NCBI RefSeq assembly: GCF_016887565.1
Contig: NZ_CP069396.1
Location: forward strand, 1,763,001 to 1,827,000
Direction: 5' to 3'
From: Archangium violaceum
Lineage (GTDB): Bacteria; Myxococcota; Myxococcia; Myxococcales; Myxococcaceae
Length of the DNA stretch: 64,000 nt
The translations under genes and the position numbers were made by a program. Each line of letters begins with the position of its first letter. The stretch's first letter is position 1. The notes beneath the pieces were generated by a model, which worked only from the letters and a program-made list of their open reading frames with translations, was not told the DNA's origin and searched no databases. Positions 23,401-45,126 of this stretch are shown piece after piece.

Positions 23401-26400
23401 CAATCGTTCCCGACCGATACCAGCCGCGAGCCGTCCGGCGCATACGCCACCGTCAAGACACCGTCGTCGTGCCCCTCCATCCGGTGGAGGAGTTCCCCGC
23501 TGAGCGCATCCCACACCCGAACCGTCCCATCCTCCGCGCCCGAGGCCAGACGCGAGCCGTCCGGCGCATACGCCATCGTCCACACACTGCTCTCGTGCTC
23601 CGCCATCTGGTGGAGCAGTTCCCCGCTGTGCGCATCCCACACCCGAACCGTCCCATCCTCCGCGCCCGAGGCCAGACGCGAGCCGTTCGGCGCATAGGTC
23701 ACCGTCCACACACGGCCTTCGTGCCCCTCCAACAGGTAGAGCAGCGCTCCGCTGCGCGCATCCCACACCCGCACCGCTCCATCGTCAGCGCCGGAGGCCA
23801 GACGCGAACCGTCCGGTGCATACGCCACCGTCCACACGCCGCCCTCGTGCCCATCCAGCCGGTGGAGGAGCTCCCCGCTGAGGGCATCCCACACCCGCAC
23901 CGTTCCATCATTGGCGCCGGAGGCCAGACGCGAGCCGTCCGGCGCATACGCCACTGTCAAGACACGGCCCGTGTGCCCCGTCAGCCGGTGGAGCAGCTCC
24001 CCGCTGTGCGCGTCCCACACCAGCACCGTTCCATCCGCGCCCGAGGCCAGACGCCTGCGATCCGGAGACCAGGCCAGATGGGACACGGAACCGCCCCTGG
24101 TGTGAAGGACGGCACGAGGTGGCGAGACATTCCCTTCCTTCGTCCCGCTTCGTGAGGGCTCCACGTGCAGGTCGATCAAGCCCTCGCGGTTCGCGGCACC
24201 CCACTTCACGTGCTCGATGGATGCATCCACCACCGAGGCCCGGAAGAGGTCCGCCTCCACGAGGCTCGCACCATCCAGCACGGCTCCATCGAGAATGACG
24301 TGGTCCGCCCTGGCCCGGTCGAGCCTGGCCCCGCGGAGATCCGCCCAGGGCAGCCTGGCTCCGGACAGCTCCGCTCCCGAGAGCACCGCTCCTGGCAGTG
24401 AAATCCAGGGCAGCTCGACATCCGCGAGCCGCGCTCCCTCCAGCCGGATGTGGGCTGGAAGCTCGTGCTCGAGCGCCCGCCCCAGGGCCTCCCCCTCGCC
24501 CTCGCGCTCCCGGGCGGCGAAGTAGAGCGCGAGCAGCGCATTCTCGCTGACGCGCGGCTGGTACCTCGTGGTGAGCACCCGGCGCAGCAGTTCCTTCCTG
24601 TGCTCCCATCCCTCCATCCCCGCGAGGAACGCCACGATTTCCGGCGTCAGCCGTGGAAGCGCGAGGGCGTCCTCCCGTCCCTCATCGAGCCGCGCGGAGA
24701 CGTCGGCCGCCAGGAAGTACTCGAGGAAGGATCTGTGCGCGAACCGGAAATGCCCCTCCTGCTCGTCATGGGCGAGGAACACGGCCGTGCGGACCTCGAG
24801 CTCCGCCTCGTCGATGGACGCGTACCGGTCGCCGAGCACCTCCTCGAGAACGATTCGCGCCACCTCGTTGCGCGTGGCGCTCGCCGCCCCGGAGTCGAAG
24901 AGCTTTCGTGCCAGGCTGCGTGCGAAGGCGAGCCGGTATTCGTGGATGACGAGCCGCTCCTCCCGGCTCCCCAACCAGTCCTCCACGGCCAGCTCGTAGA
25001 GCTTCGCCGCGCTCATCTTCCGGCTCGACAGCCGTTCCTGGTTCTTCACGATGAGGTCGAGCAACACCGGGCGCTTGGAGAGGCTCGCCAGATCGTGGGT
25101 GTTCCGGATGTTCTCCATCACGCGGGCCTTCTCCTCGACCGAGGGGGTCCGCCGTCCCACGAACTCGATGACCTCTGAGCGGTCCAGGTCCTCCAACTCG
25201 ACGATCGCCCAGGAGGACTGGCCTCCTGGTCTCGCCGCCATGACTCGCGCGGGGTCGGGGAAGAGGGTCTTGCGGGAGGTGAGCACCGCGCGCGCCTCCT
25301 CTCCAGAGAACGCCCCCAGCAAGGCTCCGATGGCGCCTTCGAGCTGATGAGGGGCGAGCTGCATCTCGTCCAGCCCGTCGAAGAGGGGGACCGTCAAACC
25401 CAGGTCGACGGCCAGCCGGAAGGCTTCCCCCGACAATCCCGGGACGTGCTTCGCCACGAGGGCGTCCAGCTCCAGGGGCATTCCGGCCAGGGGCAGGAGG
25501 AGGGGCGCCGGAGCCCGCAGGGGCTCCTCCAGGAATGCCTTCGCCATCAGGGCGGCCCGGCGTTTGAGGTGCGTGGACTTGCCCGTGCCGAAGTCCCCCA
25601 GGACGAGGACGCGCCTGTGTGCTTCCAATGATTTGACGAGGGCCTCTGCTACCGGGAGCACTTCGCCTGTCTCCCGGAGCCGGGCGCGGGCCGCCACGAA
25701 GCGGTGCTCGTCCACCTCGTTCCACGTGGTGAGGCACTGTTGCGCGTGTGCGCGGAGCGGATCACTCATCAAGGGCGCCAGCGCCTCACGCAGCCCCAGA
25801 ACCTTCACGTCGGGTATGGGAGGGGTGTCCGGCGACGTCCGGTCATACACGCGCACGGAGCCGCCGCGAGCCCCGAGTTTGCTGGCCAGAGCGATGATCA
25901 GCGTACGAAAAGAGGAGGTCAGCACCTCCGTATGGAAGTAGAGGGTGAAGCCTCCGTGGGGGAGGAGCGAGAGCACCGTGGCGAAGGGAATGAGAGGCGC
26001 CTCCCCCTGTCCGGCTCGTTGCTCAAGCCAGAGGGTGGTGCCGGGAAGGTCCAGGCAGCGCAGGAGCCGTAGCAAGAGATACGTCTCGCTCGAGTAGGCA
26101 CGAGGGGTGCGAGGAGCCTCGGTCGACGCGGTGAATCCCTCCGCCTCGATGATGCCGACCGCTTCGGCGAGAGAGAGGCGCCGGGTGTGAGCGGAAACGT
26201 CCGGTCCGCGCACGGCGGGCGACGGTGCGAGTTGCCGCAGCATTTCAACCACGGCGGTGTGCCGCCCGTCGGGGTTGTCGTAGGGGATGAGGCGCACGCC
26301 GGAGGACTCCAGCCGCTTGCGCCGGTGGGGCGTCACGGAGTCGGCGGGGACGAGCGCGAAGTGGCGGGGAGGCTGCGCTCCGGAGAAGGCGCGGATCCGG

Positions 26401-27059
26401 CTCAGGTGCAGGTCGAAGTCGTCATCGGTCAGGCCGTAGCCCACGAACAGCAGGGGCACGGCGTGGAAGAGGGCGGTGAAGGCGCCGTGCAGATTCGGGT
26501 CGGCGAAGATGGCGCGGTCGTAGTCCTCGCGGGTGAAGACCCAGCTGGAGCGGTCGAGCAGGGTGCCGTGCAGCTTGAGGATGAACTCCCTGCGCTGGGC
26601 GATGTCGCCCGTGGCGCGAGGCAGCGTGGGCCAGCGGCCGGCGAAGGCGCGCTCGAGCAGGTGGTCGATGTTGGTGGTGAGGACGGCGCGCAGGCGGGGC
26701 GCGAGCGCCGCGATGGCTCGGGTCACCTCCGGCTCGTCCGCGAGCTTGTCGTCGAGGTGCCGCTCGATGACGGTGCCGAACTCGGAGGCGCCGAGGCAGT
26801 CCTTGAGCGCCGAGAGCGCGTCGATGTACTGGCGCGCGGCGGTCAGCTCGGCGATCTCCTGGAGCGCCGCCGTATCGGCTTTGCGAGCCCTGGCGCGCTC
26901 GGAGAGCAGCTCCACCAGGCGCTTCCAACCGGGCAGGCCGGCGGCGGCCGAGACCCCCGCGCCCGCGAAGATGACCAGATTGCCGGACTCGTAGGCTTCC
27001 CGGAGCTCGGCGAAGGCAGGATCCAGGGACGCGGGGGGGCTGGGGGGTGATTCCTTCAC
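20469..27059 (-). CDS. SIR2-NACHT-pentapeptide-WD40-AAA giant STAND protein (defence candidate)
   Basis: 2196 residues. Domains in order: SIR2 (about 15-290) with FAGAGVSAAAGLP, TTNIDHLLERAF and the catalytic-His block ILKLHGTLLDRSSW; an unassigned linker; NACHT NTPase (about 480-800) with Walker A GDFGTGKST and Walker B VPLFDGLDEMQ; pentapeptide-type A-[DN]-L repeats (about 875-960); sixteen WD40 repeats of 42 residues (about 985-1650); a beta-rich linker; and a second AAA ATPase (about 1880-2190) with GDMRIGKSSLLNQ and LLIDEAQF. SIR2 domains of this type are NADases in Thoeris, DSR and SIR2-STAND defence proteins. WD40-STAND proteins sense ligands through the propeller and oligomerise. The likely job is NAD depletion on infection. 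It is ATGA-coupled to the AAA-phosphoesterase. Confidence 0.93.
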   Translation of the reverse strand: MKESPPSPPASLDPAFAELREAYESGNLVIFAGAGVSAAAGLPGWKRLVELLSERARARKADTAALQEIAELTAARQYIDALSALKDCLGASEFGTVIERHLDDKLADEPEVTRAIAALAPRLRAVLTTNIDHLLERAFAGRWPTLPRATGDIAQRREFILKLHGTLLDRSSWVFTREDYDRAIFADPNLHGAFTALFHAVPLLFVGYGLTDDDFDLHLSRIRAFSGAQPPRHFALVPADSVTPHRRKRLESSGVRLIPYDNPDGRHTAVVEMLRQLAPSPAVRGPDVSAHTRRLSLAEAVGIIEAEGFTASTEAPRTPRAYSSETYLLLRLLRCLDLPGTTLWLEQRAGQGEAPLIPFATVLSLLPHGGFTLYFHTEVLTSSFRTLIIALASKLGARGGSVRVYDRTSPDTPPIPDVKVLGLREALAPLMSDPLRAHAQQCLTTWNEVDEHRFVAARARLRETGEVLPVAEALVKSLEAHRRVLVLGDFGTGKSTHLKRRAALMAKAFLEEPLRAPAPLLLPLAGMPLELDALVAKHVPGLSGEAFRLAVDLGLTVPLFDGLDEMQLAPHQLEGAIGALLGAFSGEEARAVLTSRKTLFPDPARVMAARPGGQSSWAIVELEDLDRSEVIEFVGRRTPSVEEKARVMENIRNTHDLASLSKRPVLLDLIVKNQERLSSRKMSAAKLYELAVEDWLGSREERLVIHEYRLAFARSLARKLFDSGAASATRNEVARIVLEEVLGDRYASIDEAELEVRTAVFLAHDEQEGHFRFAHRSFLEYFLAADVSARLDEGREDALALPRLTPEIVAFLAGMEGWEHRKELLRRVLTTRYQPRVSENALLALYFAAREREGEGEALGRALEHELPAHIRLEGARLADVELPWISLPGAVLSGAELSGARLPWADLRGARLDRARADHVILDGAVLDGASLVEADLFRASVVDASIEHVKWGAANREGLIDLHVEPSRSGTKEGNVSPPRAVLHTRGGSVSHLAWSPDRRRLASGADGTVLVWDAHSGELLHRLTGHTGRVLTVAYAPDGSRLASGANDGTVRVWDALSGELLHRLDGHEGGVWTVAYAPDGSRLASGADDGAVRVWDARSGALLYLLEGHEGRVWTVTYAPNGSRLASGAEDGTVRVWDAHSGELLHQMAEHESSVWTMAYAPDGSRLASGAEDGTVRVWDALSGELLHRMEGHDDGVLTVAYAPDGSRLVSVGNDWTGRVWDARTGALLHSLEGHEGPVWTVAYAPDGSRLASGAVDGSVHVWDARSGALLHRLVGHADWVRMVAYAPDGSRLASGSDDGTVLVRDARNGALLQQLAGQESSVWTVVSAPDGSRLVSGAEDGTVRVWDARSGALLHRLEGHEGSVWMVAYAPDGSRLASGAEDGTVRVWDARSGALLHRLEGHKGRVLMVTYAPDGSCLVSGADDGTVRVWDARSGALLHQLNEHQGSVWTVAYAPDSSRLASGANDGTVRVWDARSGALLHRLEGHRNGVWTLEYAPDGSRLASGANDGTMRVWDAHSGALLYGMAGHEGGVWMVAYAPDGSCLASGAEDGTVRVWDALSGALLHRLEGHKGRVLTVAYAPDGSCLVSGADDGTVRVWDARSGALLHRLEGHQSSVWTAAYVPDGSRLVSGSEDGTVRVWSIHPETRNTILASTWEDWVALVDGTPFFVGEGNLSHLLHYVSGPRAMSAELWKPLFQRQELVREALAGKPVDMKALGLDSYEACASALLAERKRQGLVRRRSVRGGFRPATSPPQPSPSFSLPLSSVPLGLLRGGQRPPLSLYLQGTGLSPGVELSAVLHLGSQRLPATRVALERSGDVASAATVQLQFEVPGPGEGLLALTSRLQSGHEHTETLTVSFVPENPYIVGPPIDLPRDFYGREEELSRILRDLEQGYVALIGDMRIGKSSLLNQLEHRLSGSCQLLSLQRHMSNLEALPIRLAGLIAPGERLEGEPYDVLDRAITSRLTELTRARGHGARFTLLIDEAQFLIRSDSVRHELRNLFQSRRRDGLRVLVAGPPHAMRELAHDPTGSPFLNIFLPYRLGPMKRPELVRLVRTPLGDEYTVTDEAVDRIEALSGGRPLIAQLICRHALEACHVSRHFRIDGADIEQAFREKAFDDVIDIYGYPGRWAGLPEQVREVLRRLAGLPATEREALDAPTIRLLEPYGLADKVKKRLDVEPTFFLWIQEFAS
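22120..24100 (-). repeat. Array of sixteen 126-base WD40-coding repeats
   Basis: Sixteen units of 42 codons with the consensus VWTVAYAPDGSRLASG, then DGTVRVWDA and LLHRLEGH. Neighbouring units are close to identical at DNA level over long stretches (for example the recurring GTCCGGCGCATACGCCACC). Differences cluster at a few codons: the three residues after GH, the residues after LASG, and the residue after WDA. Unit 8 has VRDA in place of VWDA and ends in GQ. This looks like an array that recombines and diversifies. Confidence 0.9.
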
Positions 27060-30756: not shown

Positions 30757-32181
30757 ATGGCCGAGGAACGGACGTACCTGGAGCTGTCGGAGGATGGCGG
30801 TGGCTCGCACAAGTTCTACGAGGTGAAGCTGGAGGGCACCTCCCTCACCGTTCGCTACGGCCGTATTGGCGACAAGGGCCAGACGCAGGTTTCCCAATTC
30901 CCGACTCCCGAGAAGGCGCTCGCCGAGGCCCGGAAGAAGATCAACGAGAAGGTCCGCAAGGGCTATGCCCCCGCCGTCATGGGCGCGCGCCAGAAGCGCA
31001 CCGTCACCCGCCGGGAGATGACCAGCGGCCGCTCCACCGCGACGCAGGCCCCGCTGCTCTGGAAGTTCAACTCTGGCGACCGCGCCTTCGGCATCTTCGT
31101 GGACGACTCGCGCTGCTGGGTGGGCAACGAGAGCGGCTCCATCTATTCGGTGGACCACGAAGGCCGCACGCTGTCCCAGTTCCGCCTCGCGGATGGGGTG
31201 AAGTGCATCGTCGCCGATGACCGCTGGCTCTACGCCGGGTGCGATGACGGCCGCGTCTATGACCTCGGCGGCAAGGTGCCGCGCGTGGCCTATGCCATCT
31301 CGGACGACGTGGACATCTTCTGGCTGGACATCAAGGACGGCGTGCTCGGCGTGTCCGACGCGGGCGGCAAGCTCACCGCCATCAACCACGAGGACGAGTC
31401 CCAGTGGGTGAAGCAGAGCATCGGCACCCACGGGTGGATGGTGCGCTGCGACGAGCTGGGCATGTACCACGGCCACGGGCGCGGCCTGACCATGTACGAC
31501 TGGGAGGACGGCCGGGAAATCTGGCACCGCCCCACCCAGGGCAACGTGCTGTTCGGCTGGCAGGAGGAGTCCTCGCTCTACGCGTGCACCAACCTGGGCT
31601 TCGTGCACCGCTTCTCGAAGAAGGGGGACGCGGGGCCCGTCATGCAGTGCGACGCGGCGGTGTTCTCCTGCGCCGCGGTGGATGACGGCCGGTACGTCTT
31701 CGCTGGCGACAACATGTCCAGCGTCTACTGCTTCAACGACAAGGGCGAGCGGCTCTGGAAGCTGTCCACGGGGTGCGGCTCGGCCTTCTCCATGCAGTTC
31801 TTCGACAACCGGCTCTACCTCGTCACCACCGAGGGCGTGATGGCCTGCATCGACGCGAGCGAGAAGGCCATCCAGGCCGCGCAGTCTGGTGCGCTGCCGA
31901 AGGCCCGCGACATCCAGGCGCCGAAGCCCGTGGCCGCCGTCCCCGCCGGCACCGTGGAGACGACGCGCGAGGCGGGCAAGGGCGTCATCGTGGAGTGCTA
32001 CCAGGACGGCGCGCAGCTGCGCGTGCGCGTGGTGTCCCCCGGCTACCACTCCGACTGGCACGTGCAGTTCCCCAAGGACATCCGCCAGGCGGGCAGCCGC
32101 TACGTGGTGGAGGGCGTCCACGAGTCCGCGCGCGGTGGCTTCTACCGCGCCCATGGCGACATCCGCAGGCTGGTGAGCTGA
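30757..32181 (+). CDS. WGR-domain protein with PQQ-like beta-propeller
   Basis: 474 residues from the ATG at 30757 with GGGGAG nine bases upstream. Residues 1-75 form a WGR domain (SHKFYEVKLEGTSLTVRYGRIGDKGQTQVSQFPTPEKALAEA), the module that in PARP enzymes binds DNA ends. Residues ~100-400 are beta-propeller blades (FGIFVDDSRCWVGNESGSIYSVDHEG, YVFAGDNMSSVYCFNDKGERLWKL) and the C-terminal ~60 residues add a small domain (VIVECYQDGAQLRVRVVSPGY). There is no PARP catalytic domain. It is the first gene of a tight block: the next WGR gene starts one base after its stop. It probably binds nucleic acid and acts as a sensor or scaffold. Confidence 0.85.
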   Translation: MAEERTYLELSEDGGGSHKFYEVKLEGTSLTVRYGRIGDKGQTQVSQFPTPEKALAEARKKINEKVRKGYAPAVMGARQKRTVTRREMTSGRSTATQAPLLWKFNSGDRAFGIFVDDSRCWVGNESGSIYSVDHEGRTLSQFRLADGVKCIVADDRWLYAGCDDGRVYDLGGKVPRVAYAISDDVDIFWLDIKDGVLGVSDAGGKLTAINHEDESQWVKQSIGTHGWMVRCDELGMYHGHGRGLTMYDWEDGREIWHRPTQGNVLFGWQEESSLYACTNLGFVHRFSKKGDAGPVMQCDAAVFSCAAVDDGRYVFAGDNMSSVYCFNDKGERLWKLSTGCGSAFSMQFFDNRLYLVTTEGVMACIDASEKAIQAAQSGALPKARDIQAPKPVAAVPAGTVETTREAGKGVIVECYQDGAQLRVRVVSPGYHSDWHVQFPKDIRQAGSRYVVEGVHESARGGFYRAHGDIRRLVS

Positions 32182-32182
32182 C

Positions 32183-35100
32183 GTGAAACTGCTCGAGCAG
32201 GTGGTGCTGGTCTTCCAGGAGGGCAAGAGCGACAAGGTGTACGAGGTGGACCTGCTGGAGGTCTCCCCGGGCCAGTGCGTGGTGAACTTCCGCTACGGGC
32301 GGCGGGGCACCTCGCTGAAGGACGGCTCGAAGACGTCCGTGCCCGTACCCCAGGCCGAGGCCAGGCGCGTCTTCGACAAGCTCGTCCAGTCCAAGCTGGA
32401 CTCGGGCTACATGCGCGGCGGTGCGCCCGGCACGCCGGTGGCTCCGCCCGCTCCTCGTGCGCCCGCGCCGCCGCCTCCGAAGGAGGAGGCCCCGGCCGGC
32501 CTGTCGCCCCGTGAGAGCACCCTCCTGCGGCAGCTCCAGCAGGAGACCAGCGCCCGGCAGTGGTTCCGCCGCGCCGACGTGCGTGCCCAGCCCCGCGACC
32601 TGGAGCGCGTCATCTGGCGCGTGGGCGAGCTGCGCCTGCGCGCCGCCGAGCCCTTGCTGCTGCCCCTGTTGGAGCGGGCCAAGCCGCTGCGCGCCTACTG
32701 CATCGCCGCGGCCCTGGGGCGCGTGGGCTCGGAGGCCTCGGTGTCCGCGCTGGGACGGCTGTACGGGGAGTCCTCCACGCCGGACATGGTGCGCCGCATG
32801 GCCACCGAGGCGCTGCTTCAGCTCTCCGACGAGGCCACCCGCGCCGACTTCCGCCGGGACGTGCTGGAGAAGCTGCCCCCCGCGCTGAGGGAGCCGGCTC
32901 GGGGTGGGGACGCGGAGGTCTTCGGCAAGGCACTCGACGCGCACCTCGCCTCCGGCAGGGCGGACGCGTGCAATGTCCTCGAGCCCCTCTACCTGGTGGA
33001 CTCGGAGACGGTGCGGCCCGCGCTCCTGCGCGTGCTGCGCACGGTGCCCTTCTCCCTGGACTCGGTGCGCGTGCTGCGCCACCTCTTCAAGGCGGCCGAG
33101 TACCGGTACGACGGCGAGGTGTTCGGCCTCATCGCCTGGCGCTACGAGAAGGAGTTCCCGCTCCGGGGCGGAAGGCCACGCGCCTTCTCCCGCGATACGC
33201 GCACGTTCCTCCGGCGCCGCGTGTGGCGCACGCTGCGCCGCCTGGGCGAGCTGGAGAGCCCGGACTTCGTGAAGATGGCGGTGGGCGTGCTGCTCGCCTT
33301 CAGTGACACGGACGCGGAAACCCCTCGCTCCACGGGCTGGGGCCAGTACCAGGAGCACTGGGATGCCTGGTCGTACTATTGGGCCTTCAGCCACCTGCTG
33401 TACGGCGAGAGCCCTCGCTACGAGCCGGTGAAGAACAAGCTCGCCTTCCACTGCAAGGGCGCGTACCGGCCCGGGGCGGCGGCACCGGAGACCCGCGAGG
33501 AGTCCTTCCCCCGGCTGTGGGAGCGCACGCCGGAGGGCCTCCTGCACCTGCTGGACGAGAGCCGGTGTGCCCCGGTGCACGCGTTCGCCGCCCGTGCGCT
33601 GCGCGCCTGCCCGGACTTCCTCGCGCGGCTCGACGTGGACGCGCTGGCCATGATGTTGGAGCGTCCCTACGAGCCCACCGCGCGCCTCGGCTTCGAGCTG
33701 GCCTCGAAGCGGCTGGACGCGAAGCGCGAGCCCCGGGCGCTGCTGCTCGCGGTGGCGCGGGCCTCGTACGTGCCCGCGCGCCAGCAGGCCTTCCGGTGGA
33801 TGGACGAGGTGCGCCACGCGCTCGCCGGGGACAGCGGGTTCCTCGCGGGGCTGGCCACCGCGCCGCATGCTGACACCCGCGCCTATGTCGCCAACCTCGT
33901 GCGAGGCTCCGTGCTCTCCGCGCAGGTGGTGCAGGCGCTCGTGGGCCGGCTGGTGGCGGCGCTGCTGTCCATGAAGAAGGAGGACGGCCCGCTGGCCGTG
34001 GACGTGGGCCGCGTGGTGCTCGCCGCGCTGGGGCCGGGCTCCCGCGCGGTGGGGTTGGAGGTGGTGCGCGACCTGCTCTCCCACCCGGTGCCCGAGGTGC
34101 AGGAGCTCGGCGGCGAATTGCTGCTGCGCCGCGACCCGCGTACCGAGCCCGTGCCGGACGAGCTGCTCCACCTGTTGCTCCAGGCGGAGCACGCGCCACT
34201 GCGGGCCCTCGGCCTGCGGCTGCTCGCGCTCCTCGCCGAGTCCGAGCCCGCGCTGCTCGCCCAGGAGGCGCTCCTCACGCGCCTGGCCACCAGCCACGAG
34301 CCGGACGTGCGCGCCGCGGTGCGCCCGCTGCTGGGGCGGCTCCTCGCGGCGAGTCCCGCCGCCGGGGCGCGGGTGGTGGAGGTGCTGCTGGCCGCGTTGC
34401 TGCGCCGCCGCCTGCCCGAGGGCGTGCCGGCCCATGTGGCCGAGGTCCTCTCCGGAGAGCTGGCCCCGGCGCTGGCCCTGTTGCCCGCGGAGACGGTGTG
34501 GCGGTTGCTCGAGTCCGAGGACACCGCGGCGCAGGGGTTGGGCGGAGAGCTGCTCGCCCGCCGGAGCGCGGAGCTGACGGTGGACGTGCCGCGCGCGGTG
34601 AAGCTCGCCGGGCATGACGTGCTGGCGGTGCGCGAGTGGGCCTGGCGCTGGCTGGAGGACCATGTCCCCGAGGTGCGCGCGGAGCTGTCCACGGCGGTGG
34701 GCCTGCTGGACTCGCGCTGGGATGACGCGCGGGCCTTCGGCTTCCGCTACTTCCGCGAGCGCTTCGCCCCGGAGGACTACTCGCTGGAGGTGCTCGTCTC
34801 CATCGCGGACAGCGTGCGCAAGGACGTGCAGGCCTTCGGGCGGGACATGCTCACGCGCTCCTTCCGCGAGGAGGACGGGCCGGAGCTGCTGCTGCGCCTG
34901 TCCGAGCACCCCGCGCCCGCGGTGCAGCTCTTCGCCACCAACTACCTGGAGCGCTTCGCCAGCGGCAAGCCGGCCCTGGTGGAGAAGCTGGTGCCGTACT
35001 TCATCCGGGTGCTGAGCCAGGTGAACCGGGGCCGTGTGGCGCGCCAGCGGGTGCTGGGTTTCCTCCAGCGCGAGGGCCGGGGCACCGAGGCGGGTGGCCG

Positions 35101-35254
35101 CATGGCCATGGAGGTTCTGCACCGGATGTCAGCCACCATTGCTATAGAGCATCGCGCCGCGGCGCTGGAGGCGATGCTGTCCATCGCGAAGGCGCAGCCG
35201 TCCGTCTCCCTGCCCTTCCACATCCGTCCGGTGGAGGTCCGCCGTGCAGTTTGA
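32183..35254 (+). CDS. WGR-domain HEAT-repeat protein
   Basis: 1023 residues from a GTG one base after the preceding stop. The N-terminal ~80 residues are a second WGR domain (GKSDKVYEVDLLEVSPGQCVVNFRYGRRGTSLKDGSKT). A Pro-rich linker follows, then a very long alpha-solenoid of HEAT-like repeats (LRLRAAEPLLLPLLERAKPLRAYCIAAALGRVGSEASVSALGRLYG, and further units to the end). No catalytic motif is visible. It overlaps the start of the SWIM gene by 11 bases. Related WGR-HEAT proteins occur in predicted bacterial conflict or ternary systems; the exact function is unknown. It is likely a scaffold that binds nucleic acid ends through WGR and partners through the solenoid. Confidence 0.82.
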   Translation: MKLLEQVVLVFQEGKSDKVYEVDLLEVSPGQCVVNFRYGRRGTSLKDGSKTSVPVPQAEARRVFDKLVQSKLDSGYMRGGAPGTPVAPPAPRAPAPPPPKEEAPAGLSPRESTLLRQLQQETSARQWFRRADVRAQPRDLERVIWRVGELRLRAAEPLLLPLLERAKPLRAYCIAAALGRVGSEASVSALGRLYGESSTPDMVRRMATEALLQLSDEATRADFRRDVLEKLPPALREPARGGDAEVFGKALDAHLASGRADACNVLEPLYLVDSETVRPALLRVLRTVPFSLDSVRVLRHLFKAAEYRYDGEVFGLIAWRYEKEFPLRGGRPRAFSRDTRTFLRRRVWRTLRRLGELESPDFVKMAVGVLLAFSDTDAETPRSTGWGQYQEHWDAWSYYWAFSHLLYGESPRYEPVKNKLAFHCKGAYRPGAAAPETREESFPRLWERTPEGLLHLLDESRCAPVHAFAARALRACPDFLARLDVDALAMMLERPYEPTARLGFELASKRLDAKREPRALLLAVARASYVPARQQAFRWMDEVRHALAGDSGFLAGLATAPHADTRAYVANLVRGSVLSAQVVQALVGRLVAALLSMKKEDGPLAVDVGRVVLAALGPGSRAVGLEVVRDLLSHPVPEVQELGGELLLRRDPRTEPVPDELLHLLLQAEHAPLRALGLRLLALLAESEPALLAQEALLTRLATSHEPDVRAAVRPLLGRLLAASPAAGARVVEVLLAALLRRRLPEGVPAHVAEVLSGELAPALALLPAETVWRLLESEDTAAQGLGGELLARRSAELTVDVPRAVKLAGHDVLAVREWAWRWLEDHVPEVRAELSTAVGLLDSRWDDARAFGFRYFRERFAPEDYSLEVLVSIADSVRKDVQAFGRDMLTRSFREEDGPELLLRLSEHPAPAVQLFATNYLERFASGKPALVEKLVPYFIRVLSQVNRGRVARQRVLGFLQREGRGTEAGGRMAMEVLHRMSATIAIEHRAAALEAMLSIAKAQPSVSLPFHIRPVEVRRAV

Positions 35255-36890
35255 GTACTCCTTCGCGGGCAACACCGCGGTGCAGCACCGGGGTGACCGG
35301 ACCGAGCTGTCCTTCGCACCGGACCTCAAGCGCGAGCCCACCTTCTTCACCGGGGAGCTGCGCCAGAACGTGGCCTTCCGCGAGGCCATCTCCGCGCTCC
35401 ACGACGTGGTGGTGTCGGACCTGCGCTTCAAGCCCAAGGACAAGACGGCCTACAAGGCCTGGGCCGCGCAGCAGGAGGAGGCGGACCTGGCGGCCATCGC
35501 CTCGCAGCGGCAGGCCACGGCCAGCCGGCTCAAGGCCCTGCGCGAGGAGCTCACCGCGCTGGAGAAGCAGAGCGCGGCGCGCATGCAGCCCTTCTGGGAT
35601 GCGCGCGCGCGCTACTTCAAGTTCCTCTACGAGAAGCACCGGGACTTGTGGTTCGTGTACGACCCGGTCATCACCATCCACCCGGACGAGTGCTTCTTCG
35701 AGTGCTTCAGCCAGGACGAGTCCACCTACGGCCGGCTCGGCGCCAGCTACGAGGTGTTCCAGAACATCGGTGACTTCTCCTGCGGCACGACGAACGTCGA
35801 CTACTCGGAGCCGCTGTACGACGAGTTCCAGAAGATCCGCTCCTACAAGCAGACGCGCTTCGAGGTGGACCCGAGCGGCTTCACCACGCGCACGGGCACG
35901 GACGCGGCGTACAAGGAGGTGAAGATCGACCTCCCGGACTCGTGGGTGCGCGGCTTCCTGCAGGTGAACTCGGCGATGGCCCTGCCGACGGTGCGCTTCA
36001 CGCTGCACCCCATGGACGTGCACAACTTCCTCGTCGTGCTCAAGCGGCACAAGGAGAAGAAGGGGCCGCGCTCCATGCGCTACAAGCTGGCGCCGGGGCA
36101 GCCGGTGAAGGTGGTCTTCGAGCCGTGGGGCACGGAGGTCGTCTGCCGTCGCTCGGTGTACGAGGGCGAGGGCACGCACGACATCCGCGTGTGGGGCCGC
36201 CGGCGGCTCGGGGTGCTGGAGCGGCTGCTCCCGGTGGCCCGGCGCTTCACCGTGCACCTGCTGGGCACGGGGCTGCCGTCCTTCTACGTGGCGGACCTGG
36301 GCGACCTGTCCTTCACCCTGGGCCTGTCCGGGTGGACGGCCAATGACTGGTCCACCGCGGGCAACTTCGACCTGATGGCGCCGCGCGGGCAGGTGGACGA
36401 GCTCACCCGCCGCCGCGTCTTCGACGCGCTCAAGGAGACGTGGTCCGCCAGGCCCGAGGCGCTGGCCTCGAAGCTGGGGTTGGAGCGGGGCACGGTGCTC
36501 GGCGCGCTGTCGGCCTGGACGCAGGCGGGGCGGGCCATCTGGGACCTGAACAAGGGCGTGTACCGGGCGCGCGAGCTGAGCCGCGAGCCGCTGCCGGTGG
36601 ACAAGCTGCGCTTCTCCAACGAGCGCGAGGAGCGCGCCACGCGCTTCCTGGACGCGAGGGCGGTGCACGTGCAGGCCAGGCCCTCCAGCGTGGACGGCTC
36701 GCTGGAGCTGAGCGGCACGGTGAAGGAGGGCGAGAAGGTGCTCCGTCCCTCTTTGCGGCTCGATGGGGACCAGCGTATGGTTTCAGGCGAGTGCACGTGC
36801 AACTTCTTCCAGCAGAACAAGTTGTTCCGGGGGCCGTGCGAGCACCTGCTCGCGCTGCGGCTCCAGCACTCACGGGTGTCTCGCACATGA
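35244..36890 (+). CDS. SWIM zinc-finger protein
   Basis: 548 residues from a GTG inside the previous gene. The C-terminus carries a SWIM finger: CTC, a spacer, then CEH (CxCxnCxH), as in proteins that bind DNA or partners in recombination and conflict systems. The rest is unassigned. It contains a coiled coil (EEADLAAIASQRQATASRLKALREELTALEKQ), an aromatic alpha/beta region (DLWFVYDPVITIHPDECFFECF) and a winged-helix-like part (TRRRVFDALKETWSARPEALASKLGLERGTVLGALSAWTQAG). Its stop codon is the first triplet of the retron RNA's left arm, so the gene and the retron are physically joined. Confidence 0.82.
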   Translation: MQFEYSFAGNTAVQHRGDRTELSFAPDLKREPTFFTGELRQNVAFREAISALHDVVVSDLRFKPKDKTAYKAWAAQQEEADLAAIASQRQATASRLKALREELTALEKQSAARMQPFWDARARYFKFLYEKHRDLWFVYDPVITIHPDECFFECFSQDESTYGRLGASYEVFQNIGDFSCGTTNVDYSEPLYDEFQKIRSYKQTRFEVDPSGFTTRTGTDAAYKEVKIDLPDSWVRGFLQVNSAMALPTVRFTLHPMDVHNFLVVLKRHKEKKGPRSMRYKLAPGQPVKVVFEPWGTEVVCRRSVYEGEGTHDIRVWGRRRLGVLERLLPVARRFTVHLLGTGLPSFYVADLGDLSFTLGLSGWTANDWSTAGNFDLMAPRGQVDELTRRRVFDALKETWSARPEALASKLGLERGTVLGALSAWTQAGRAIWDLNKGVYRARELSREPLPVDKLRFSNEREERATRFLDARAVHVQARPSSVDGSLELSGTVKEGEKVLRPSLRLDGDQRMVSGECTCNFFQQNKLFRGPCEHLLALRLQHSRVSRT

Positions 36891-37158
36891 GAGAGGAGAG
36901 GGTCCGCGCACGCGGCGGTCAGGGGGCAGTACCTTGCAACCCGGACGGTGTTTCGCCGTCCATGCCTCATGGCCTGTCATGCATCACTGGCCCGCTCTTT
37001 ACTGTGCGCGGCCTCCCTCCCTGTCGCCGCAGCGATGTCGACCTCGTCGGTCCTGCGCGCGACAGGGAGGGGGCCGCGCTTGAGTTGAGACGGTCCAGTC
37101 CCGAGAGCAGTACGAAGGTGCTCTCTGACCGCCGCGTGGACGGACCCTCCCTCTCTCA
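36888..37158 (+). ncRNA. Retron msr-msd RNA (Mx162/Sa163-like)
   Basis: Long inverted repeats a1 (36888-36922) and a2 (37125-37158) pair over ~34 bases with two mismatches and one bulge. This is the outer stem from which the branched msDNA is primed. Inside a1 lie small msr hairpins: GGACGG/CCGTCC at 36943-36961 and GGCC/GGCC at 36971-36992. The msd part contains a large hairpin: left arm 37006-37027 (GCGCGGCC then TCCCTCCCTGTCGC) and right arm 37059-37079, extended by CGCAG/CTGCG around a short loop. The reverse transcriptase starts ten bases after a2. The layout matches the myxobacterial retrons whose msDNA is about 160 nt. The branching G should lie just after a1 but I do not fix it. Confidence 0.92.
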
Positions 37159-37168
37159 CTGACCCGCC

Positions 37169-38722
37169 ATGTCCTCCCAGCGCCCCCGCAGCCGACAGGA
37201 GCTGTACGACCGCATCCGCGCCAGCTCGAAGGAAGAGGTCATCTTCGAGGAGATGGTGCGCCTGGGCTTCTGGCCGGAGCGCAGCGGCGCGCCCGGGGAC
37301 CCGGCGGAGGTGATGCACCGGCGCAACGAGCTGCGGGGCGAGCTTCGCGCGCTCGCCACGGAGCAGAGCCGGCTGGGCAACCTGGAGAAGCTGAAGCGCG
37401 AGCTGCGCAAGCGGCGGCTGGAGGAGAGCCGCCGCAAGCAGCAGGAGACGAAGGAGCGACGCGAGCGCGAGCGGCAGGCGCGGGCCGAGGCCTGGAAGGA
37501 GCGCAAGGCGAAGGAGCTGCTCTTCCTGGGCCGGGGCGTGTCCGGGGGCCTGAGCGAGCGCACCGCGGACGAGGCGAAGCTGACGCGCCTGGGCCTGCCG
37601 GTGCTGGCTACGCCCGAGGCGCTGGCGCAGGCCCTGGGGCTGAGCGTGGGGAAGCTCCGGGCGCTGTGCTTCACGCGCACCGCGTCCACCACGAGCAACT
37701 ACGTGCGCTTCCTGCTGCCCAAGAAGACGGGTGGCACCCGGCTCATCTCCGCGCCCCTGCCGAGGTTGAAGGCGGCGCAGGCGTGGGTGCTGGAGAACAT
37801 CCTCGAGAAGGTGCCGGTGCACGAGGCGGCCCACGGCTTCCGCGAGGGGCGCTCCATCGTCACCAACGCCCGGCCGCACGTGGGCGCGCGCGTGGTGGTG
37901 AACCTGGACCTGAAGGACTTCTTCCCCTCGGTGCTGTACCCGCGGGTGAAGGGCGTCTTCGTGCGGTTGGGCTACAGCGAGGCCACCGCCACGGTGCTGG
38001 CGCTGCTGTGCACCGAGCCGGACGTGGAAGAGGTGGAGCTGGATGGACAGCGCTACTACGTCACCCAGGGCGGGCGGCGGCTGCCCCAGGGCGCGCCCAC
38101 CTCGCCCGCGCTGACGAACATCCTCTGCCGGCGGTTGGACAGGCGGCTCGCGGGCGCGGCGCGCAAGCTGGGCTTCGTCTACACGCGCTACGCGGATGAC
38201 CTCACGTTCTCCGCCCACGGGCCGGAGCCTCGCGATGCCGGGGAGCTGTTGCGCTTCGTGCGCTGGCTGGTGCGGCAGGAGGACTTCACGCCGCATCCCG
38301 AGAAGACTCGCGTGTTGCGCCGGGGCCGGCAGCAGGAGGTGACGGGCGTCGTCGTCAACGACAAGCCCGGCGTGGACCGTGAGACGCTCAAGCGCTTCCG
38401 CGCGCTGCTGCACCAGTTGGAGAAGACCGGGCCCGAGGGCAAGCGGTGGGGGCACAGCGGGGACGTCATCGCCTCGGCCGTGGGCTTCGCCAACTACGTG
38501 GCCATGGTGGACCCGGTGAAGGGCAGGGCGTTCCAGGAGAAGGCCCGGGCGCTGGAGCTGCGCTACGGACGCCGGCCCGCCCCGCCTCCGCGGGCCAGGC
38601 CCTCGAGTGCTCCGGCCCAGGCTCCCGCGTCTCCGGTTGCCGCTCCCGTGGACAGTCCGCGGACGGAGACGGAGCAGAAGCCCGCCGAGCCTCCGAAGAA
38701 GAAGTGGTGGAAGCTGTTCTGA
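37169..38722 (+). CDS. Retron reverse transcriptase
   Basis: 517 residues. A charged N-terminal extension with a long Arg/Glu/Lys coiled coil (residues ~50-115) precedes the polymerase, as in the myxobacterial retron RTs. Motifs: NLDLKDFFPSV (first catalytic Asp), LPQGAPTSPALTNILCRRLDRRL, TRYADDLTFSA (YADD active site, about residue 339) and EVTGVVVND, the retron VTG motif of the Y region. It copies the msd part of the RNA immediately upstream into branched msDNA. The Pro-rich C-terminal tail is unusual. A short single-pass membrane protein follows after 28 bases. Retrons are anti-phage systems, but the effector of this type has not been assigned to my knowledge. Confidence 0.95.
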   Translation: MSSQRPRSRQELYDRIRASSKEEVIFEEMVRLGFWPERSGAPGDPAEVMHRRNELRGELRALATEQSRLGNLEKLKRELRKRRLEESRRKQQETKERRERERQARAEAWKERKAKELLFLGRGVSGGLSERTADEAKLTRLGLPVLATPEALAQALGLSVGKLRALCFTRTASTTSNYVRFLLPKKTGGTRLISAPLPRLKAAQAWVLENILEKVPVHEAAHGFREGRSIVTNARPHVGARVVVNLDLKDFFPSVLYPRVKGVFVRLGYSEATATVLALLCTEPDVEEVELDGQRYYVTQGGRRLPQGAPTSPALTNILCRRLDRRLAGAARKLGFVYTRYADDLTFSAHGPEPRDAGELLRFVRWLVRQEDFTPHPEKTRVLRRGRQQEVTGVVVNDKPGVDRETLKRFRALLHQLEKTGPEGKRWGHSGDVIASAVGFANYVAMVDPVKGRAFQEKARALELRYGRRPAPPPRARPSSAPAQAPASPVAAPVDSPRTETEQKPAEPPKKKWWKLF

Positions 38723-38750
38723 GCCGGGGCTCGCGGTAGGGTCGGGCCGC

Positions 38751-38999
38751 GTGAACTGGAACGTCGTCTTCGTGGTGCTCGGGGCCGTGGTGCTGCTCGG
38801 GCTCATCATCTGGGTCGTGGGTGGCAACGAGGTCAGCCGCCTGCGCAACCAGTACTTCCGCAGTGTCCCACTCCCGCGCGCCCAGGCAGAGCAATCCCTC
38901 GCGCGCCACCTCGCCAGGCTCCAGGAGCGTTACCCCGGCAAGACCGAGGCCTGGTACCTCCGCCGCGTCCTGGCCGACCTGGAACGCGACCGGCGGTGA
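38751..38999 (+). CDS. Small single-pass membrane protein downstream of the retron
   Basis: 82 residues from a GTG 28 bases after the reverse transcriptase stop. Residues 3-24 form one strong membrane helix (WNVVFVVLGAVVLLGLIIWVV). The rest is a charged helical cytoplasmic tail (RAQAEQSLARHLARLQERYPGKTEAWYLRRVLADLERDRR). No known domain. The ribosome binding site is weak (TAGGG), so translation may depend on the reverse transcriptase. Some retron effectors are small membrane proteins (for example retron Ec48), so this is a candidate effector by position; it could also be an unrelated small protein. Confidence 0.65.
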   Translation: MNWNVVFVVLGAVVLLGLIIWVVGGNEVSRLRNQYFRSVPLPRAQAEQSLARHLARLQERYPGKTEAWYLRRVLADLERDRR

Positions 39000-39038
39000 G
39001 CCCACCGGGTGGCGTTCGTCAGGTTCGGAGTCTATATG

Positions 39039-39053
39039 GTGTCATATGGACAC
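39039..39053. promoter_or_regulatory. Palindrome over the start of the ADP-ribosylglycohydrolase gene
   Basis: GTGTC-atatg-GACAC, perfect five-base arms overlapping the start codon at 39046. The sequence around it is AT-richer than its surroundings. It could be an operator that controls the gene separately from the retron block. No regulator gene is adjacent. Confidence 0.3.
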
Positions 39054-40203
39054 TATGATTCCGAATGACATTCAGGGAGTTTCCGTGGAGGAGCGTGTCC
39101 AGGGCGCCCTGTGGGGCCTCGCCTGGGGTGACGCCCTCGGCTGTCCCGTCGAGACCTGGCGCGCCTCCTTCATCCGTCAGGTGTTTGGCGACTACGTGGA
39201 GCTGCCCTCCGAGCTGCCCCTCCAGGCGCTCGCGGGTGACAAGAAGCGGCTCGAGCGCCTCCGCCCGCTGGGGCTCCACTCCGATGACACCCAGCAGGCC
39301 CTGGCGCTCGTCGCCTGCGCGCTCGAGCCGGGTGGATGGACTCGCGAGTCCTGGGCCCGCTGGCTCGTCGAGGGCCTGCGCCGCAAGGCCTGGCGCGGCT
39401 ACGGGCGCAACTTCCAGGTCGCCGTGTCCCAACTGGCGAAGGGTGGCGCCCCGGAGCACTCGGGGAGCGCCTCGGCCGGTATGGGCGCCGCCATGCGCGT
39501 GGCTCCCGTGGGCGCCCTGCTGCGCGATGCGCCCGCCGAGCTCGCCCGCGTGGTCATGGAGTCCTCCATGATGACCCATGCGGATCTGCGCGCCTCCGCC
39601 CTGGCCTACGCCGTGGCCTGGTCCGTGGCCGCCCTCGCGCGAGGCGAGGACGTGGCCCGCGTGCGCGCTGGCGTGGCCTCCGCGGTCCGCGAGGAGGAGA
39701 CTCGCTGGCTCCAGTCGGGCACCGCGTGGAGCTTCGATCGGACCGGCGGGCACCTCGTCTCGGAGACGCTGGCCGCGCTGCTCGAAGGCCCTGTCCTCGC
39801 CCCGGCGGCCTTGCGCGAGCGCATCTCCGAGCTGGCCCGCCCGCACCTCGCCGAGGGCTTCACCGTGGCGCACCCCAACCAGGGCTTCGCGCTCCTCGGC
39901 GGCGCTCATGGGCTCGTCCGGGCGCTCACCGCCGAGGAGGCTCCAGGCGCCGTGCTCGCGGACATCATTCAGCAGGGCTACGACACCGACACCGTCGCGG
40001 CCATCGCGGGGGGTGTTCTGGGCGCGCGGTTCGGAAGCGCTTGGGTGCCCCGGGCCCGGTTGCTCGACTCGGAGCGGCTCGAGGGGTATGCCCGGGCGCT
40101 CGTGGCGCGCGGTGGAGCTCCTGAGACGCTCGATGCGTTCGTGAAAAACGAAGCGGCCTGGACCGCTCACGAGAAGCGGTTCCAGGCCGGTCTGGTGCGG
40201 TGA
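39046..40203 (+). CDS. ADP-ribosylglycohydrolase (DraG-like)
   Basis: 385 residues from the ATG at 39046 (a second ATG at 39055 is possible). It has the fold's metal-binding signatures: RVQGALWGLAWGDALGCPVE, LHSDDTQQALAL (the [ST]DDT motif) and the C-terminal GYDTDTVAAIAGGVLGARFGSAWVP (the D-T-D motif). These bind two Mg ions and cleave ADP-ribose from proteins or nucleic acid. It is the last gene of the same-strand block that begins with the WGR genes and includes the retron. WGR is a PARP-associated module, so an ADP-ribose signal in the block is possible, but no ADP-ribosyltransferase is visible here. Confidence 0.92.
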   Translation: MDTMIPNDIQGVSVEERVQGALWGLAWGDALGCPVETWRASFIRQVFGDYVELPSELPLQALAGDKKRLERLRPLGLHSDDTQQALALVACALEPGGWTRESWARWLVEGLRRKAWRGYGRNFQVAVSQLAKGGAPEHSGSASAGMGAAMRVAPVGALLRDAPAELARVVMESSMMTHADLRASALAYAVAWSVAALARGEDVARVRAGVASAVREEETRWLQSGTAWSFDRTGGHLVSETLAALLEGPVLAPAALRERISELARPHLAEGFTVAHPNQGFALLGGAHGLVRALTAEEAPGAVLADIIQQGYDTDTVAAIAGGVLGARFGSAWVPRARLLDSERLEGYARALVARGGAPETLDAFVKNEAAWTAHEKRFQAGLVR

Positions 40204-44223: not shown

Positions 44224-45126
44224 TCAGTCCAGGAAGCGGCGCTCCCATTGGAGGAGCCCCTTGGAGGCCGGGCCGCCGAAGATCGGTTTCCAGTGGTAGA
44301 GGTGGGGCTCGAGGAGCCGTGCGAGCGCACGGTGCATGGGAAGCGACTGGCCTGCTTCGATGTCTCCCACCTCTGGCCGCTCACCGAGAGTGATGAGGAC
44401 CCGGTCATCGCTCATCTCCTGGAGTGAGATACCCGGGAGCGTCAGGTGCTCGCGCAGACCGGTCAACCCGCCGAGCTTCCCGAGCACGGGCTGCCCGAGG
44501 AAGTTCATCCAATGCACCCCGTCCACCCAGGTGTTCATGTGCATGTTCGCTCCGTTCCATGCGAGGTGCACCCCCGGGTAGCGCGGGCGGATGAGCTCGA
44601 GGGCTTCATCCGAATCTCCAAGGGACGCGCAGAGGACGAAGTCCACATAGCCCGAGTTGAAGGGGAGCTCTTTCGCCAAATCGAGAGCGAGCGCATGGAC
44701 ATGCTCCGAACCCCGCTCTTCCAGGTACTCCGTGGGCAGGCGCAGGTACAGGACGCTCACATCATCCTGCCGGTAGGGCCAGGGGAGGGGAACGACGTCC
44801 AATCCCCTGTAGTCCACGTGGAGTCCTGCGAATCTGCGAGGGTCATCCCACAGCATTTGGGATGCGAGTTCGTCGGGCCCCGGTTTCAACATCCGCTTGC
44901 GGATTCTCTCCCATGCGGAGTCATCGAGTGGCTCGGCTTGCCCCTCACCCGTGTCGTTCCAGGCAAGCTCGTAGGGCCGTATCCGTTCACGGAAGAGTTC
45001 CAGGGCACGCACGACGGCGGGCGCAATCCGCTCGTTGGGGTGCCGCATGTAGAAGCTCATGACCAGGGCATCACATGCGGTCAGCCGGCCGTACTTGTCG
45101 TGGTATCGCAGTCTCGGGTAGCGCAT
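44224..45126 (-). CDS. DUF3396-like immunity protein for the adjacent nuclease toxin
   Basis: 300 residues, cytoplasmic, no signal peptide. It matches the DUF3396 pattern (MRYPRLRYHDKYGRLTACDALVMSFYMRHP near the start, VDFVLCASLGDSDEALELIRPRYPGVHLAWNG, and WVDGVHWMNFLGQPVLGKLGGLTGLREHLTLPGISLQEMSDDRVLITLGERPEVGDIEAG). This family is annotated as type VI immunity for VRR-NUC-type nuclease toxins. It lies 15 bases downstream of a lipoprotein nuclease toxin gene, the usual toxin-immunity order. It should bind and block the nuclease in the producing or recipient cell. The family assignment is from memory of its motifs and needs a profile search. Confidence 0.75.
   Translation of the reverse strand: MRYPRLRYHDKYGRLTACDALVMSFYMRHPNERIAPAVVRALELFRERIRPYELAWNDTGEGQAEPLDDSAWERIRKRMLKPGPDELASQMLWDDPRRFAGLHVDYRGLDVVPLPWPYRQDDVSVLYLRLPTEYLEERGSEHVHALALDLAKELPFNSGYVDFVLCASLGDSDEALELIRPRYPGVHLAWNGANMHMNTWVDGVHWMNFLGQPVLGKLGGLTGLREHLTLPGISLQEMSDDRVLITLGERPEVGDIEAGQSLPMHRALARLLEPHLYHWKPIFGGPASKGLLQWERRFLD

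Follow-up and report, generated by a model that had tools for sequence, protein, structure and literature searches.

A type XIII retron with an added WGR-propeller protein in Archangium violaceum

Organization of the locus

The stretch of DNA analysed here, called the window, comprises 64,000 nucleotides of the myxobacterium Archangium violaceum, whose genome is a single contig of 13.21 Mb. It contains the gene of a retron reverse transcriptase (RT), preceded by a non-coding RNA (ncRNA) and by three genes for proteins with WGR, HEAT or SWIM domains, and followed by genes for a protein of 82 amino acids (aa) and an ADP-ribosylglycohydrolase (Table 1). The locus is almost certainly a type XIII retron, complete in its parts, plus one added protein, the WGR-propeller. 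According to a passage of PMC6868368, retrons were first discovered in myxobacteria, in 1984.

All seven elements lie on the plus strand, and their order, strand and tiny gaps, as described in an initial annotation of this DNA, agree with the sequence. One base separates the WGR-propeller and WGR-HEAT genes, the WGR-HEAT and SWIM genes overlap by 11 bases, and gaps of 28 and 46 bases follow the RT gene and the 82-aa gene, respectively.

Table 1. Features of the retron locus and two further genes of the window
Feature	Position	Strand	Evidence
WGR-propeller protein: WGR, BamB/PQQ-like beta-propeller and C-terminal domain of ~90 aa; 474 aa	30757..32181	+	Pfam WGR 8.5e-21; propeller matches
WGR-HEAT solenoid protein, type XIII partner; 1023 aa	32183..35254	+	PADLOC WGR_XIII 1133 bits, residues 2-1019
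SWIM zinc-finger protein, type XIII partner; 548 aa	35244..36890	+	PADLOC SWIM_XIII 772 bits
Retron ncRNA: outer a1/a2 stem, msr hairpins, msd	36886..37161	+	Minimum free energy (MFE) z -13.5; consensus structure
Long msd hairpin; sequence varies with pairing retained	37006..37079	+	Columns 134-209 of 14-locus alignment
Retron RT with ~140-aa N-terminal extension; 517 aa	37169..38722	+	PADLOC RT_XIII 630 bits; RVT_1 4e-23
82-aa protein with a single hydrophobic stretch; neighbour, outside the cassette	38751..38999	+	Distribution over 12 loci
ADP-ribosylglycohydrolase, DraG/ARH fold; 385 aa; neighbour, varying among Archangium loci	39046 (ATG)..40203	+	Pfam ADP_ribosyl_GH (PF03747) 4.3e-44
Protein of 2196 aa: SIR2_2 domain and numerous WD40 repeats; lies 3.7 kb to the left of the cassette	20469-27059	-	SIR2_2 2e-32
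TsiV-type immunity protein (type VI secretion system) for a VRR-NUC effector	44224-45126	-	1.3e-42

Type XIII identity

The retron type scheme is reportedly that of Mestre et al. 2020, and typing was done with the PADLOC-DB 2023 models. Among the 59 PADLOC families that the window RT matches, RT_XIII scores highest, and the XIII models match the RT, WGR-HEAT and SWIM proteins almost end to end. The features of type XIII present in the window are an XIII-clade RT with the motifs listed for retron RTs (NAxxH at residue 233, YADD at 341 and VTG at 391), a WGR-HEAT partner, a SWIM partner and an upstream msr-msd ncRNA. The initial annotation was not aware of any retron described with these partners, a statement that has to be withdrawn, since PADLOC-DB 2023 already has WGR_XIII, SWIM_XIII and RT_XIII models. 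The set of WGR-HEAT, SWIM and RT is thus already classified, and the new piece is the WGR-propeller, for which no PADLOC model matched at E 1.

The retron RNA

The ncRNA between the SWIM and RT genes is genuine and far from chance, although Rfam had no match in the window. The stretch 36885-37168 folds with -190.7 kcal/mol, against -122.5 +/- 5.1 kcal/mol in 100 dinucleotide shuffles (z -13.5), and its outer a1/a2 stem pairs ~36886-36927 with 37119-37161. Pairing in the MFE fold begins at 36886, beside the SWIM stop codon (36888-36890), which is where the a1 arm had been placed initially. In an RNAalifold consensus of 14 loci (the window and 13 relatives), 35 of 88 consensus pairs are compensatory, meaning that both sides have changed with pairing retained in at least one sequence.

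The a1 end carries GGTCAGGGGG at eight loci and GGTCAGAGGG at four. Mx162 and Sa163 retrons prime at CAGC, according to a passage of PMC6868368; this motif is absent at window-type loci, which have CAGG or CAGA at the a1 end instead, as judged from position. A strong promoter or terminator separating the trio of WGR/HEAT/SWIM genes from the retron, which would have spoken against their link, was looked for at 36600-37400: the scan returned no sigma-70-like and no terminator-like site, with 0.0 and 0.3 expected, and therefore has little power.

Conservation among relatives

The window's family was sampled with 76 genomes out of a larger group, and 12 of these, the window included, carry an RT 74-100% identical to that of the window; the named RT relatives are Archangium violaceum Cb vi76, Archangium lansinium and Hyalangium versicolor. 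The order WGR-propeller, WGR-HEAT, SWIM, RT is kept in all 12, and the stop of the WGR-propeller gene lies exactly 1 base from the WGR-HEAT start in 11 of them (823 bases in G003). At 68 of 78 places a SWIM homologue has a retron RT no more than 10 kb away, and at 65 no more than 3 kb; rows showing short N-terminal fragments of genes already included were left out of the count. For six of the ten unpaired SWIM genes, the same genome has an RT without a SWIM partner, located on a different contig or at a distance of 62 kb; the others are three divergent genes more than 1 Mb from any counted RT and one weak fragment. The initial proposal that the retron travels with these genes is thus borne out, and SWIM is far from equally common without the retron.

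The WGR-propeller

Within the 12-locus clade, the identity of the WGR-propeller falls to 77%. Homologues 44-62% identical are found, without retron genes, on replicons of Nonomuraea, two Streptomyces, Deinococcus, Hymenobacter and Calothrix, the last with a second, shorter relative adjoining the first, and G065 has a second copy, also without retron genes. The protein was probably recruited to the retron, because L042 and L060, the closest type XIII loci beyond the clade, have no match to it. It has a parallel in the giant proteins of the Mx162-like loci L088 (2177 aa) and L090 (2403 aa), which carry a WD40 propeller at the N-terminus. On viral contigs, no relative of SWIM, WGR-propeller or PARP was confirmed by tblastn. 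The C-terminal domain of the WGR-propeller is also matched, more than once, by the C-terminal part of a VWA protein (L096:4554-6416, minus strand).

WGR-HEAT, SWIM and the distribution of WGR

In the WGR-HEAT protein, Pfam detects HEAT_2 (1.9e-5); its WGR match is weak, with 19.8 and 24.8 bits in two scans against a cut-off of 22. Its predicted structure combines WGR with an all-helical solenoid (mean predicted local distance difference test, pLDDT, 68.7), and among the best 50 matches listed this model resembled large HEAT/ARM proteins with template modelling (TM) scores by query of 0.10-0.22, which points to a scaffold and nothing further. The SWIM domain scores 4e-4 and 20.2 bits (cut-off 19.6), and its finger residues C517, C519, C532 and H534 are present in 14 of 14 aligned homologues. 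The structure model of this protein is poor (pLDDT 45.6, predicted TM score 0.27), and its profile had no match at E 1 among PDB sequences. In none of the three partners (WGR-propeller, WGR-HEAT and SWIM) could an enzyme domain be recognised.

WGR sits on the HEAT protein in the window, L042 and G099, on PARP in G105 and G115, and at the C-terminus of a giant HEAT protein in L090 and L091. Of 28 loci or locus pieces scanned with a WGR profile, 9 were hit, L154 weakly so (E 0.017); the domains of the window, G105 and G115 contributed to the profile and therefore match by construction. The profile missed the L055/L056 SWIM type (six), the 'C' SWIM type (six), L060, L098, L088, L089, L057, L141 and L153. 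In the window genome, WGR matches comprise two at the retron locus and one 308-aa frame. A small WGR gene in G106 (L142:3417-3884) has an ATG that overlaps the RT stop codon; a fusion of RT and WGR was rejected there, the two being separate frames.

Mx162-like loci

The label 'Mx162-type', used initially for the window retron, is loose: the RT is related to that of the Mx162-like locus L088, but at 48% identity, and the genome holds a separate Mx162-like copy. L088 and L089 were named Mx162-like on account of their layout, the size of their RT and the motif CAGC, with CATCAGC present in L088. Their SWIM tails show a weak resemblance to WGR: hhalign gives E 5e-5 with a probability of 68%, and the Pfam WGR model matches one of two tails at E 0.06. 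The second type XIII locus of the window genome, at 12.779-12.797 Mb (L057/L093), is Mx162-like, and a 659-aa open reading frame, LysM-like by eye, separates SWIM from RT. The distance between the SWIM and RT starts at such loci is ~5.3 kb in the window genome, 5.9 kb in G044, 6.9 kb in G028 and 62 kb in G051, and the two genes are on separate contigs in G007 and G037.

Neighbouring genes

The 82-aa protein has no confident Pfam family. It occurs at 10 of the 12 close loci, in G062 ~3.5 kb from the RT, and was not found in G011 and G053. The hydrolase, which has the motifs GDALG, SDDT and DTDT and is one of six ADP-ribosylglycohydrolase matches in the genome, is intact at 2 of the 12 (the window and G007). 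Remnants of 22-32 residues from its 3' end stand directly behind the 82-aa gene in G037, G044 and G051, most simply explained by loss, and G028, with the same flanks, has no hydrolase match. The two genes, initially counted with the cassette, are therefore neighbours at the chromosomal site, and the hydrolase was rejected as a constant member; it may be an optional accessory that, for example, removes ADP-ribose from host proteins. Farther to the left, the 2196-aa SIR2_2/WD40 protein is possibly an NAD-directed defence protein.

Type XIII operons with PARP

Two genomes of other Myxococcota families, G105 (f16) and G115 (f22), carry operons with all genes on one strand, in the order WGR-PARP, macro, HEAT, SWIM, ncRNA, RT and ADP-ribosylglycohydrolase. 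The first gene encodes WGR, PARP_reg and PARP (1e-32 and 1e-27, respectively) and retains the H, Y and E motifs, the residues that matter in PARP enzymes; the second encodes a macro domain (2e-9 and 9e-10). The hydrolase matches ADP_ribosyl_GH with 2.8e-60 in G105 and 6.6e-75 in G115, where the frame continues into an NAD-dependent DNA ligase. Counted by first start codon, the gaps in G115 are 25, 36, -4, 288 (ncRNA) and 33 bases, and the ncRNA stretches of G105 and G115 fold with z -8.5 and -9.2. The two operons share 58% identity in PARP, 60-64% in macro, 41% in HEAT, 54% in RT and 37% in the hydrolase.

Such operons are rare. Of 60 SWIM_XIII-positive genomes (146 genomes searched), 2 have PARP within the operon, and at E 1e-20 PARP of this kind occurs in 5 of 195 Myxococcota, three of them close and two of these in the G105 and G115 operons. 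The other type XIII pieces among 37 scanned locus pieces, some overlapping, had no PARP, macro or hydrolase match (tblastn, 1e-4). As for the window genome, the hydrolase (eraser) is present, and no PARP (writer) was found at E 1e-20. In G122, a PARP and macro pair 68% and 79% identical to that of G115 (L162:11298-13807) has no retron match on its piece. G036 and G040 (L164:3400-10187 and L165:8464-17940) have tandem PARP-like genes, identified by tblastn at 24-28% identity, near a DraG-type hydrolase, with no RT match; these hydrolases are 48-49% identical to that of the window, and an NAD-ligase-like gene, named by eye, is nearby.

In a hydrolase tree of 34 rows, the window and G007 group with G036 and G040 at 100/100, whereas G105 and G115 form another branch. 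Twenty-eight rows came from a search with 62 places listed, frames being taken from locus position 1501, and six rows are under half filled, some possibly mis-framed; the groups used are window/G007/G036/G040 and G105/G115/G014_C9. Near the hydrolases G014_C9 and G053_C4, no match to PARP, RT or SWIM was found. Because the window and G105/G115 hydrolases are on different branches, a hydrolase behind a type XIII RT probably arose twice. Chance adjacency of hydrolase and RT is judged unlikely, since the G105 and G115 genomes have one to three hydrolase genes or fragments each.

Proposed mechanism and alternatives

To our knowledge, no role has been tested for the WGR, HEAT and SWIM partners of retrons. 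The best explanation overall, to which we give an even chance, is that a type XIII retron and its partners, with the WGR-propeller added as a fourth protein, form one unit. How this would work, with a particle of multicopy single-stranded DNA (msDNA) and release of WGR/SWIM, can be proposed more tentatively. The RT would copy msd into a hairpin msDNA and remain bound to it, and the SWIM and WGR-HEAT proteins would hold this particle. The WGR modules might read the msDNA duplex or its ends, as the WGR of PARP1 binds DNA ends and nicks, and HEAT and propeller may serve as scaffold. Phage proteins that damage or capture the msDNA would free the WGR/SWIM complex, which would then act on nucleic acid and halt growth, an abortive infection as with other retrons. 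Passages of PMC12548924 and PMC9967889 describe retrons as defence systems.

Several observations weigh against this reading. No RT, SWIM or HEAT match was found in the 15-17 kb around the WGR-propeller homologues of the other replicons. Among 110 RT places (the weakest rows, E 3e-10 and above, left out), 42 have no SWIM within 10 kb; 36 of these score at most 258 bits, and the 12 close RTs at least 834. An Argonema (cyanobacterium) RT_XIII, 665 bits and 61% identical to the window RT (L041:9998-11398), has no SWIM or HEAT match on its 21.4-kb locus. WGR is frequent at type XIII loci, not universal, because the profile missed 19 of 28. The SWIM protein, its model being poor, could conceivably hide an enzyme.

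Diaphorobacter (L104), Streptomyces (L105) and G060 (L107) have distant SWIM relatives (25-30% identity) that lie beside DUF6493/DUF7824 genes and lack an RT match. These likewise weigh against retron and trio as one unit, although the linkage in the close clade holds. Together with the WGR-propellers that stand without retron genes in five named genera and at the second site of G065, they would fit an independent conflict system of WGR, HEAT and SWIM that merely travels with retrons. This is quite improbable: SWIM of the family is seldom found away from an RT, six of the ten exceptions having an unpaired RT in the genome, and the window ncRNA stem starts at the SWIM stop codon. We consider it just as improbable that the WGR-propeller gene is a mere passenger in the operon, dispensable for the working of the retron. 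L042 and L060, just outside the clade, do lack a match, and in G003 the gene is 823 bases from WGR-HEAT; yet the protein is present throughout the clade with a 1-base gap in all but one genome, at identities down to 77%, and the two Mx162-like giants that were scanned have their own N-terminal propeller.

ADP-ribose had been suggested initially as a signal. The two distant operons with PARP, macro and hydrolase speak for this, and the lack of PARP in the window genome at the threshold used speaks against it, so that an ADP-ribose link is present in a small minority of type XIII retrons and, for that of the window, is a guess with indirect support. A role general to type XIII, in which WGR senses DNA ends or msDNA, the hydrolase resets the mark and the writer in the window is of another kind or phage-derived, is unlikely. 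It draws on the G105 and G115 operons with their retained PARP motifs and on the grouping of the window hydrolase with two hydrolases near PARP-like genes; it is opposed by the rarity of PARP operons, the absence of a writer here, the intact hydrolase at just 2 of 12 close loci, the different hydrolase branches and the retron-free pair of G122. Slightly less doubtful is a wider scheme in which type XIII retrons are WGR DNA-end sensors wired to ADP-ribose. The msDNA particle of G105 and G115 would control a PARP1-like enzyme, a macro reader and a hydrolase antidote, and in the window clade PARP would have been replaced by catalytically empty WGR proteins, with a hydrolase of the PARP-linked kind kept or regained.

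The recurring set of HEAT, SWIM, RT and ncRNA, often with WGR and propeller, is reshuffled among loci, which gives a hint of what domains are required. To specialists, the PARP-type operons would be the surprising part. If functional, they would bring ADP-ribosylation and a retron together in one bacterial system, and the activity of a retron type in which no toxin has been recognised could be read out directly, as ADP-ribosylation or as loss of NAD+. Nothing among the matches listed from the open-licence literature joins retrons with PARP or type XIII partners, nor does a portion of the retron text of PMC9967889; one WGR match that was checked was the unrelated abbreviation wGRR.

Comparison with known systems

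The SWIM and DUF6493/DUF7824 pairs resemble the window in having a SWIM_XIII-like protein (135-176 bits, two scanned) beside a large protein, and differ from it in having no RT match; three of their large proteins were scanned and matched no PADLOC model at E 0.01. The Mx162/Sa163-like loci L088 and L089 share with the window an N-terminally extended RT, an ncRNA 5' of the RT and SWIM and HEAT partners, but these are fused otherwise, as a 909-aa HEAT protein, a 2177-aa WD40-HEAT giant and a 619-aa SWIM protein. The PARP-type operons of G105 and G115 have, like the window, HEAT, SWIM, an RT (47-48% identical), a folded ncRNA and a hydrolase after the RT; unlike the window, they begin with WGR-PARP and macro genes, have no WGR-propeller, and their hydrolase is of another branch. 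With type XIII as modelled in PADLOC (WGR_XIII, HEAT-ARM_XIII, SWIM_XIII and RT_XIII), the window locus shares the same partners and the ncRNA 5' of the RT; it differs in the extra WGR-propeller, which is fixed in its clade, and in the hydrolase and 82-aa protein that lie 3' in the window.

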